Source: a virus
DNA: 28,594 bases
IMG/VR virus record: IMGVR_UViG_3300025086_000163
Location: 1-28,594 of that record
Direction: 5' to 3' (one strand)
Below the pieces are notes generated by a model, which saw nothing but the letters and a program-made list of their open reading frames with translations, did no database searches and was not told the DNA's origin. The position numbers and the translations under genes are program-made. This document shows positions 2,232 through 21,260 of the stretch, one piece after another; the stretch's first letter is position 1; every line of letters starts with the position of its first letter.

Positions 2232-2245
2232 GTTTATTAGAATAA

Positions 2246-2574
2246 AATTGTTCTTAAAATAGTAGTGTCTGTCCAAAGTACTTCGTTTGCTAGCTCGTCC
2301 GCATACGGGATTACGATTTATTACCAACCTTTTGAGTGTTTACATCAAACCTTTATTTGATGTGATAATACCACTTGCTTCGCTTCAGTATATATGCCTT
2401 CACAGAGCCTAATCCCACCGTTTAATCAAGTTTAATACTTCGCCAAGTATTAAAATAATATTGCTATCATTTTATTTTATAAAGCGTCTAACTTTTTTAA
2501 CTCTCGTCGCTAGGGTGCGCGTCTAGTTTCCTATATATCAGATTTCGTTTTCTACTATTTCAATGAACAATTAT
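2246..2574 (-). ncRNA. Candidate structured non-coding RNA, about 329 nt, antisense to all genes
   Basis: The only sizeable gap between genes (2232-2687) holds no protein frame. On the - strand its two ends pair: 2552-2572 with 2246-2265 gives a 20-bp helix with one bulged base and one G-U pair. Nested inside are a 9-10-bp hairpin with a GGCG loop (2431-2454), a 7-bp long-range helix (2410-2416 with 2307-2313) and an 8-bp hairpin within it (2342-2363). An alternative 8-bp stem lies at 2451-2479. A Bacteroidota promoter (2579-2609) places the transcript start at about 2574, right at the closing helix. The end is inferred from the helix and a weak T-rich stretch. I do not recognise the family; GOLLD and ROOL phage RNAs are larger, and I see none of the RNase P or tmRNA signatures. 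Confidence 0.65.
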
Positions 2575-2578
2575 AGTG

Positions 2579-2609
2579 CAAAGATACACTTTTTTTTTAA
2601 TTGTAACAA
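2579..2609 (-). promoter_or_regulatory. Bacteroidota-type promoter driving the minus-strand RNA
   Basis: Read on the - strand: TTG at 2609-2607, exactly 20 nt spacing, then TATCTTTG at 2586-2579. This matches the TTG (-33) and TAnnTTTG (-7) consensus of Bacteroidota sigma-A promoters. The predicted start, a few bases past the box (about 2574), falls at the first base pairs of the structured RNA. No protein gene lies downstream on this strand. Confidence 0.75.
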
Positions 2610-2670
2610 TTATAAACAGAATTATTACCAAAGTTATTAACAATTGAGGTGTTAAACTAAAAACAACAAA

Positions 2671-20890: not shown

Positions 20891-20907
20891 GTTTTTAACC
20901 TCTTTTT
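20889..20907 (+). terminator. Weak intrinsic terminator after the late block
   Basis: AGGTT, loop TTT, AACCT, then CTTTTT directly overlapping the stop of the phosphoesterase gene. Only 5 bp, but it lies where late transcription should stop before the early promoter at 21028. The rest of the 184-nt gap is AT-rich with several T tracts. Confidence 0.5.
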
Positions 20908-21027
20908 CAACCAATTTTAATCTTTTTTTAAATTTATTTTAGTATCATTTACTAGATAAGGGATAACTTTTTTTAATATTTTTAGTTAAAAAGTATGTTA
21001 AAAGTTAGGTTAGTAAGTTTTTTGTTA

Positions 21028-21035
21028 TATCTTTG
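21028..21035 (+). promoter_or_regulatory. Host-type early promoter (-7 box)
   Basis: TATCTTTG, a perfect TAnnTTTG box, followed by about 39 nt of leader to the ATG at 21075. At the -33 distance the sequence is GTTAGG, only a partial match to TTG. It opens the early region and needs no phage factor, so it is probably the first promoter used after infection. Confidence 0.7.
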
Positions 21036-21074
21036 TACCATCAAAATTAAATTAATTAAATAATAAACATAACT

Positions 21075-21254
21075 ATGGCTAAAGAAAGGAAAAACACGGA
21101 GGAAATAAAAAAAGATTTATTAAAGTATTTATATGATTTAGATGGTGTTTTATACTACTATAAATTTTTTAACTTTACTTATCAAGGTGAAGAAGTAAAA
21201 GAAATAAGAAAAGATATTGAAAATATAAAAAACAAAATAAACAAATTAAAATAA
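21075..21254 (+). CDS. 59-aa charged protein, first early gene
   Basis: Starts MAKERKNTEEIKKDLLKYLY and ends with a helical charged stretch (VKEIRKDIENIKNKIN), with an aromatic centre (GVLYYYKFFNFTYQG). It is the first gene behind the host-type promoter at 21028. No known family. First-position early genes of phages often act against host functions, but nothing here shows a target. Confidence 0.6.
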   Translation: MAKERKNTEEIKKDLLKYLYDLDGVLYYYKFFNFTYQGEEVKEIRKDIENIKNKINKLK

Positions 21255-21260
21255 TAAGAA

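Follow-up and report, generated by a model that had tools for sequence, protein, structure and literature searches.

A portable family of phage-encoded structured RNAs with a boxA-like sequence at the 5′ end

Introduction

What does a densely packed phage genome keep in a long stretch that codes for no protein? The window, by which we mean the whole analysed stretch of viral DNA (28,594 nt), contains an intergenic gap of 456 bp at positions 2232-2687, flanked by TerL (921-2231) and a gene that starts at 2688. A first-pass annotation, made from the letters alone, had pointed to this gap in a genome where all genes would lie on the plus strand and touch each other. That picture is broadly right, except for a second gap (20891-21260) with an early promoter and an ORF of 59 aa. 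The gap behind TerL is as described, with no minus-strand ORF of note; none found in it is credible (the ORFs inside have only 21-27 aa). The same annotation proposed that the minus strand encodes an undescribed structured RNA, comparable in idea to GOLLD or ROOL and possibly engaged in DNA packaging. Here we present comparative evidence that leaves little doubt that the window RNA is genuine and is one of a new family of structured non-coding RNAs that phages encode, and we discuss what such an RNA could do.

Promoter and extent of the RNA gene

The minus strand of the gap carries the sequence of a Bacteroidota promoter, as had been proposed (TTG, 20 nt, TATCTTTG), and a promoter of the TTG/TAnnTTTG type is found upstream of most Bacteroidota-type members of the family too. 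Since the flavobacterial −7 box, with the consensus TAnnTTTG, sits at −12 to −5 (PMC9723704), the transcript is predicted to start at about 2574. This is two nucleotides ahead of position 2572, where the 20-bp closing helix begins. In members from unrelated contexts the edges of homology coincide with the closing helix.

2607..2609, minus strand: −33 element TTG (sequence of the RNA gene's promoter)
2579..2586, minus strand: −7 element TATCTTTG, 20-nt spacer from TTG (sequence and flavobacterial consensus)
~2574 to ~2246 (2246..2574), minus strand: structured non-coding RNA, ~330 nt (edges of homology in members from unrelated contexts)
2577 to 2241, minus strand: window RNA sequence ACUAUAAUUGUUCAUUGAAAUAGUAGAAAACGAAAUCUGAUAUAUAGGAAACUAGACGCGCACCCUAGCGACGAGAGUUAAAAAAGUUAGACGCUUUAUAAAAUAAAAUGAUAGCAAUAUUAUUUUAAUACUUGGCGAAGUAUUAAACUUGAUUAAACGGUGGGAUUAGGCUCUGUGAAGGCAUAUAUACUGAAGCGAAGCAAGUGGUAUUAUCACAUCAAAUAAAGGUUUGAUGUAAACACUCAAAAGGUUGGUAAUAAAUCGUAAUCCCGUAUGCGGACGAGCUAGCAAACGAAGUACUUUGGACAGACACUACUAUUUUAAGAACAAUUUUAUU with the comparative pairs given below (comparative fold)
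.....((((((((.((((((((((((................................((((.((((((.((.....((((..(((((.....................................((((((((....)))))))))))))..))))...)).)..)))))...))))...((((((........((((.........(((((((((((((((......))))))))................)))))))..))))......))))))...................................)))))))))))))))))))).....

Folded as a single sequence, the window RNA is mildly unusual (z −1.9; 4 of 100 shuffled sequences fold as well), and thus comparison between members was needed to prove a structure. When only the window sequence is used, the minimum-energy fold (−70.6 kcal/mol) is not the comparative one (−60.0 kcal/mol when constrained), and it was set aside.

Members of the family

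Scans with conserved motifs led to 15 distinct members in viral contigs, which range from near-identical to unalignable outside four short motifs. Copies were first found by exact scans with short pieces of the RNA, and later members by scans with the core motifs shared with L095; motif matches were kept only if the motif order was correct or if the covariance model R1 passed. Matches in L083, L087 and most of L097-L176 were rejected as chance, lying mostly within ORFs. Among them are the copies of L084 (94% identical to the window RNA, after a non-homologous TerL) and L086 (~94%, in a different genomic place), and those of L088 and L089/L091 (~80-82%). The copy of L095, in a 204-kb phage contig, is preceded by a sigma70-like promoter and shares the core motifs only. 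Core-motif scans added L126, L118, L127/L101/L103, L136, L131 (cut off), L170 and L175, and L152 came from GTDB. The order common to members is boxA, GGAAA...GACGCGCACCCnAGCG (M1), GGGAUUnGGCUCUGUGA (M2), ACCGAAGCGAGGCAAGUGG (M3), a variable helix, AAUCGUA (M4) and the closing strand. Model R1, searched over 92 sources, recovered all full-length members and also L111/L113/L117 (E 5e-15), none of which had gone into its construction; in the window it matches the RNA core at 2291-2422 (E 2.6e-28, the near-identical copy L085 being part of the model).

The L152 contig (JAUWBM010000007.1) was binned in an archaeal (Thermoplasmatota) MAG. It encodes TerL together with the family RNA and is therefore viral, likely a misbinned bacteriophage. 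A sequence resembling the 3′ half of a tRNA (GGGGATTCGATTCCCC...) lies just upstream of boxA in this contig. L131:1-364 (minus strand) is a GC-rich (49%), truncated member with M1, M2 and the boxA UUAACAAUUGAAUAGU; its M3 is divergent, which suggests another subtype.

Outside these contigs the searches were negative. None of 395 Bacteroidia genomes gave an R1 match at E 1e-3 (with strict filters and few candidates scored in each), and an exact-pattern scan of GTDB returned L152 only, on its viral contig. Searching five members by blastn against INPHARED (50,697 phage records), and the window RNA against plasmids and E. coli, gave chance or promoter matches only.

The first-pass annotation had suggested an Rfam search of the minus strand. 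At the gathering score no Rfam 15 family matches the window, with GOLLD, ROOL, HEARO, 6S, RNase P and tmRNA among the models. Relaxed searches returned chance matches only at E up to 5 (window and L095) and none at E up to 0.5 (eight further loci). Novelty thus stands, and the idea of an undescribed structured RNA class with its own promoter is upheld, with the covarying closing helix as the boundary. A retron, a group I or II intron and an OMEGA RNA were also considered and rejected; the RNA has no Rfam match, and the subset of neighbouring proteins that was searched contained no reverse transcriptase or RNA-guided nuclease. We found no description of such a family in the open literature, which is weak evidence, since only open papers were covered and the candidate lists of PMC8040213 lay outside the comparison.

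Comparative fold

The elements of the fold are listed below, with the evidence in brackets.

2552..2572, minus strand: closing helix P1, 5′ strand (covariation)
2246..2265, minus strand: closing helix P1, 3′ strand (covariation)
2506..2531, minus strand: motif M1 GGAAACUAGACGCGCACCCUAGCGAC, including the 5′ strand of helix P2 (2519-2506) (conserved in 14/15 members; covaries with M2)
2400..2419, minus strand: motif M2 GGUGGGAUUAGGCUCUGUGA, 3′ strand of P2 (covariation)
2490..2500, minus strand: helix P3, 5′ strand (covariation; Bacteroidota-type members only)
2422..2432, minus strand: helix P3, 3′ strand (covariation; 2/11 pairs mismatched in the window copy)
2433..2452, minus strand: hairpin with GGCG loop (UA-CG and AU-GC pair changes between subtypes)
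2392..2397, minus strand: helix P4, 5′ strand, GCAUAU (covariation)
2301..2306, minus strand: helix P4, 3′ strand, GUAUGC (covariation)
2371..2386, minus strand: motif M3 GAAGCGAAGCAAGUGG, nearly invariant core (13 aligned members and L111)
2312..2318, minus strand: motif M4 AAUCGUA (invariant in all full-length members)
2364..2370, minus strand: helix P6, 5′ strand (covariation)
2319..2325, minus strand: helix P6, 3′ strand (covariation)
2342..2363, minus strand: 8-bp hairpin ACAUCAAA/UUUGAUGU, subtype-specific insert within P6 (six nearest members only)

Compensatory changes among relatives, which the first-pass annotation had proposed to look for, are abundant. In an alignment of the helix strands of 15 members, registered by hand and comprising 50 pairs in six helices, 95.8% of cells are paired and 34 of the 50 pairs show double changes; the covariation score is 0.364, compared with 0.148 for shuffled sequences and at most 0.078 for slid partners. 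Hand registration favours pairing, and therefore the stricter test is alignment A2, built by MAFFT from 13 core sequences without the use of structure and scored over the 16 pairs of P4, P5 and P6. It gave 94.7% paired cells, double changes in 10 of the 16 pairs and a score of 0.594 (0.248 shuffled, at most 0.133 with slid partners). Under a null that preserves the tree and the substitutions on its branches, 66% of cells were paired (maximum 81%) and 4 cells carried a double change (maximum 14, as against 41 observed). The structure as a whole lies far above this null; only one of the 16 pairs passes it alone, the per-pair test having little power at 13 sequences.

The closing helix P1 is the 20-bp helix with one bulge and one G-U pair that had been predicted (2572-2552/2265-2246); among its 12 inner pairs, 10 show double changes and 92% of cells are paired. 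It was also considered as the terminal inverted repeat of a transposon, and this was rejected, as no transposase was recognised and the helix, which lies within the predicted transcript, shows the covariation of an RNA. Inside P1 the fold departs from the earlier proposal at one place. A 7-bp long-range helix GGGAUUA/UAAUCCC had been suggested, and indeed GGGAUUAGG is conserved; the strand taken as its partner is not, and reads UACCUCC, UAUUCAG, UGUGGCU and others in other members. The partner of the M2 strand is instead ACGCGCACCCUAGCG, with GGGAUUAGG pairing to CCCUAGC of the 5′ motif M1; this helix, P2, has double changes in 8 of 12 pairs and 98.9% of cells paired. L111 has new letters on both sides (M1 GUGAAGCCCUGAAC, M2 GGUUACAGGAUAACUUUA) and pairing is kept. 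P3, with double changes in 7 of 11 pairs, holds in Bacteroidota-type members only. The GGCG hairpin proposed earlier is real, its pairing being kept as UAA/UUA becomes CGG/CCG in a second subtype, and the proposed 8-bp hairpin exists as well but is limited to the nearest subtype, with one compensatory change, in L136. Double changes occur in 5 of the 6 pairs of P4 and in 4 of 5 pairs of P6, which is 100% paired. Between them P5 is predicted from the pairing of M3 GCGA with M4 UCGU; these pairs mostly never vary, so that P5 is not proven by covariation. The M1-M2 helix and the conserved M3/M4 core, like the boxA discussed below, were absent from the first-pass account.

These data bear on the simplest alternative, that the structure arose by chance in a decayed or protein-coding spacer. 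The weak single-sequence fold score would fit it, as would the small ORFs that occupy the same slot in L015 and L025/L029. Yet compensatory change is strong, homology boundaries are sharp and no ORF is conserved; with covariation refuting it, the probability left to this explanation is negligible.

An optional cassette in different slots

The genomic surroundings of the RNA were compared in 80 contigs with a TerL at least 86% identical to that of the window, which were taken as relatives.

2232..2655, no strand: cargo insert, missing from empty sites (in relatives ACTAAAAACAACAAATTTCTATTATATA alone separates TerL from the following gene)
20998..21260, plus strand: second slot, with early promoter and 59-aa ORF, where L086 carries the RNA (flanks closely similar, content different)

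In most relatives the TerL-to-next-gene gap has 30-45 nt, compared with 456 nt in the window, and these short gaps end in the same ACTAAAAACAAC...TATTATATA as the window gap. No R1 copy was present in pieces from 79 relatives or in 35 of their whole contigs (one sub-threshold chance match), and in about 70 contigs with an 86-98% identical TerL the RNA is absent from the post-TerL site. In L015 and L025/L029 the minus-strand promoter region of the window is shared (82-93% identical) and a different small minus-strand ORF lies behind it. As relatives put different ORFs behind the same promoter region, the spot behind TerL is a cargo slot with a minus-strand promoter, which in turn supports transcription of that strand.

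The small minus-strand ORFs of this cargo (moron) locus differ between L015:2587-2960 (77 aa) and L025/L029:6311-6673, and the 77-aa protein of L015 has no Pfam match. In L056:2764-3106 and L069:2192-2533 the minus-strand promoter of this slot precedes ~110 nt that do not code for protein, in which a GAUAACG/CGUUAU hairpin is possible and a bidirectional terminator (GGGUGCUAAG) is seen; this may be a further small RNA. An (A)TTTCTATTATATA leader that recurs, and is highly conserved in relatives, stands right before start codons at 562-577 and 2668-2687 of the window; it is possibly a late promoter or a translation signal.

The second slot of the window (20998-21254) consists of an early promoter (TATATCTTTG) and an unannotated 59-aa ORF (MAKERKNTEEIKKDL...) without a Pfam match. 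L086 and the window are closely similar across this promoter and again from the next gene (MNYKIVN...), and between these flanks L086 has the RNA and the window the ORF. Because the flanks match while the content differs, the RNA is exchanged as a cassette between slots. The same RNA in different slots, absent from most close relatives, shows that it is a portable, optional cassette. The early operon of the window has neither the family RNA nor any other boxA match.

Most members are followed, 64-106 nt past the core and on the same strand, by an operon of small ORFs, for the most part unnamed (the sequences of L136 and L131 stop before this can be scored), whereas the RNAs of the window and L084 stand alone after TerL, with no downstream gene on their strand, and run antisense into TerL. 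The L084 copy has changes at conserved sites (M3 AAGCG to AATCG and a 3-nt deletion), so that this standalone copy could be decaying. In L084:3390-4836 the TerS/TerL pair is swapped for a non-homologous one between conserved flanking genes and the conserved RNA, a terminase module swap.

The position beside the terminase genes had raised the idea of a packaging RNA that works with terminase in the manner of phi29 pRNA. TerL is adjacent in the window lineage and in L084, where an RNA 94% identical to that of the window accompanies a non-homologous TerL. Elsewhere the RNA lies away from terminase, heading small-ORF operons, and the relatives with near-identical terminases lack it at the site. 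A packaging role is thus very improbable.

A boxA-like sequence at the 5′ end

A further clue comes from the start of the RNA.

2556..2568, minus strand: boxA-like sequence GTTCATTGAAATA, overlapping P1 (family pattern; sole match in the window)

All Bacteroidota-type members have GTTC(A/T)TTGA(A/G)ATA 10-30 nt after the −7 box. The RNA 5′ end reads GUUCAUUGAAAUA in the window, L084, L086, L088, L091, L136, L126 and L118, and GUUCUUUGARAUA in L127, L170, L175 and L111. As an independent check the 16S loci of Bacteroidia genomes were compared: GTTCTTTGA occurs ~75-140 nt before 16S in most genomes with a readable leader, often followed by AAATATTG. The boxA of Bacteroidota-type members matches this leader GTTCTTTGA, from which that of the window (GTTCATTGA) differs by one base. 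L095 has GUUCUUUAACAAUUGAAUAG, an E. coli-like form with UUCUUUAACAA, and the GUUUUUUGAAAAUUGA of L152 is similar to the boxA of Firmicutes. In L095 and L152 only, boxA lies upstream of the closing helix, the arrangement known from rRNA, and in Bacteroidota-type members it overlaps P1. The family pattern has a single match in the window, at the RNA, and 39 of 100 shuffled windows give at least one match at two or fewer mismatches; the evidence is therefore the position shared across the family and not rarity in the window.

rRNA synthesis depends on the leader-trailer helix, and NusB-S10 is brought in through boxA (PMC10250234). boxA is known upstream of rRNA (PMC10250234), and it has been reported ahead of CRISPR arrays and of long non-coding RNAs of other kinds (PMC7862264). 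Judging from its sequence and placement, boxA is probably functional in the family RNA. In Bacteroidota-type members it lies partly within P1, and folding might hide it.

One use of boxA would be as a decoy, the RNA sequestering NusB-S10 and lowering host rRNA transcription. It would be in line with boxA being the most uniformly placed 5′ feature and with its type differing with the phage. However, boxA alone would do for this purpose, which leaves the large conserved core unexplained, and boxA is partly paired in P1; we regard a decoy as improbable.

Possible modes of action

In the reading that we favour, the transcript would start from a probably strong, early promoter a few bases before a host-type boxA; the promoter type and the operons of small ORFs are our reasons for calling it early. 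As with rRNA, boxA would be bound by NusB-S10 and the rRNA antitermination complex of the host, and RNA polymerase would be carried through a long untranslated, folded RNA without Rho termination. The two RNA ends, whose pairing as a leader-trailer-like helix is shown by covariation, may let the ~330-nt RNA fold and be excised from the transcript at P1. Once released, the RNA would have its effect in trans, early in infection, and on a host component that is itself conserved, for which the ribosome, RNA polymerase or a Nus factor are candidates; very different phages keep the M1/M2 helix and the M3/M4 internal loop of the RNA.

In most members the RNA follows the promoter directly and heads a co-directional operon, like a cis element, and this counts against such a reading. 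So do the possible decay of the standalone L084 copy, the partial burial of boxA in P1 and the one base by which the boxA of the window departs from GTTCTTTGA. The placement at the head of an operon, together with boxA at the RNA 5′ end, argues for processive antitermination in cis, in which the nascent boxA and fold would bind RNA polymerase and Nus factors and allow read-through of early-operon terminators, as in lambda nut or HK022 put. The put RNAs, located downstream of the HK022 early promoters, need no phage protein (PMC9378689). However, the window and L084 copies have only antisense TerL downstream, the early operon of the window has neither the RNA nor another boxA, the contigs of near relatives lack the RNA, and 330 nt with six helices far exceeds put (~70 nt). 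Since most members do head an operon, antitermination in cis is the strongest competing explanation, though rather unlikely.

A cis-regulatory leader or riboswitch would instead sense a ligand or protein and thereby control the small early ORF that comes first. The small ORFs 64-106 nt downstream of the core and the nearly invariant, binding-site-like M3/M4 internal loop would suit it, but the downstream gene is non-homologous between most members and some copies stand alone. Moreover, a closed helix forms the 3′ end, where neither a switching terminator nor sequestration of a ribosome site is obvious. Its probability is low.

We prefer action in trans to action in cis, since for two copies there is nothing that they could serve in cis, the early operon of the window has neither the RNA nor another boxA match, and relatives lack the RNA; we hold it to be somewhat probable. 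The best reading, to which we give slightly better than an even chance, is a portable phage RNA that is expressed early, acts in trans and is produced by means of an rRNA-like device (boxA and leader-trailer helix). For the wider proposal the balance is even: a new class of trans-acting RNA would borrow the host device for rRNA synthesis, act as a stable early RNA on a universally conserved host machine and move between phages and slots as an optional cassette.

Significance and comparison with known systems

Few large structured RNAs lack a known function, and the discovery of such classes has tended to bring new biology to light. The present family is supported by compensatory change across phages that apparently use different host types, and its boxA and rRNA-like closing helix give a concrete handle. 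One may ask: do phages use the rRNA antitermination machinery for a regulatory RNA? The boxA hypothesis is testable in Flavobacterium or Bacteroides systems, and the covariance core and motif set allow the family to be found in culturable isolates.

Like phi29 pRNA, which has 174 nt, the family RNA is encoded by phages, and it lies beside packaging genes only in the window lineage and L084. It differs from pRNA in size and gene context and is not linked to terminase. With HK022 put and lambda nut it has in common a structured RNA right after phage early promoters, and nut also uses boxA. Yet put is ~70 nt long, has two hairpins and acts in cis (PMC9378689), whereas the family RNA has ~330 nt, six covarying or conserved helices and a different fold; it also has standalone copies. 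A position between an early promoter and an operon is seen in most members, though not in the window and L084. The arrangement of a promoter, a boxA and a folded untranslated RNA closed by a long flank helix resembles the pre-rRNA leader (PMC10250234), and the Bacteroidota boxA GTTCTTTGA is common to both. In contrast to pre-rRNA, the RNA body is not rRNA (Rfam negative), and boxA overlaps the closing helix in Bacteroidota-type members, being upstream only in L095 and L152.

GOLLD and ROOL are large, intricately folded non-coding RNAs of unknown function encoded by phages and prophages (PMC12286853). The comparison made in the first-pass annotation holds insofar as the family RNA is also a large folded phage RNA with no assigned function; it is a member of neither class. 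It is shorter (~330 nt, as against ~660 and >800), begins with boxA and matches no Rfam model. GOLLD and ROOL often lie near phage tRNA islands, whereas the family loci are without adjacent tRNA genes (ARAGORN found none in 16 member loci or the window). GOLLD and ROOL assemble into a homo-oligomeric cage. As an RNA class the family is new; in concept, as a large RNA of phages with no assigned function, it belongs next to GOLLD and ROOL.
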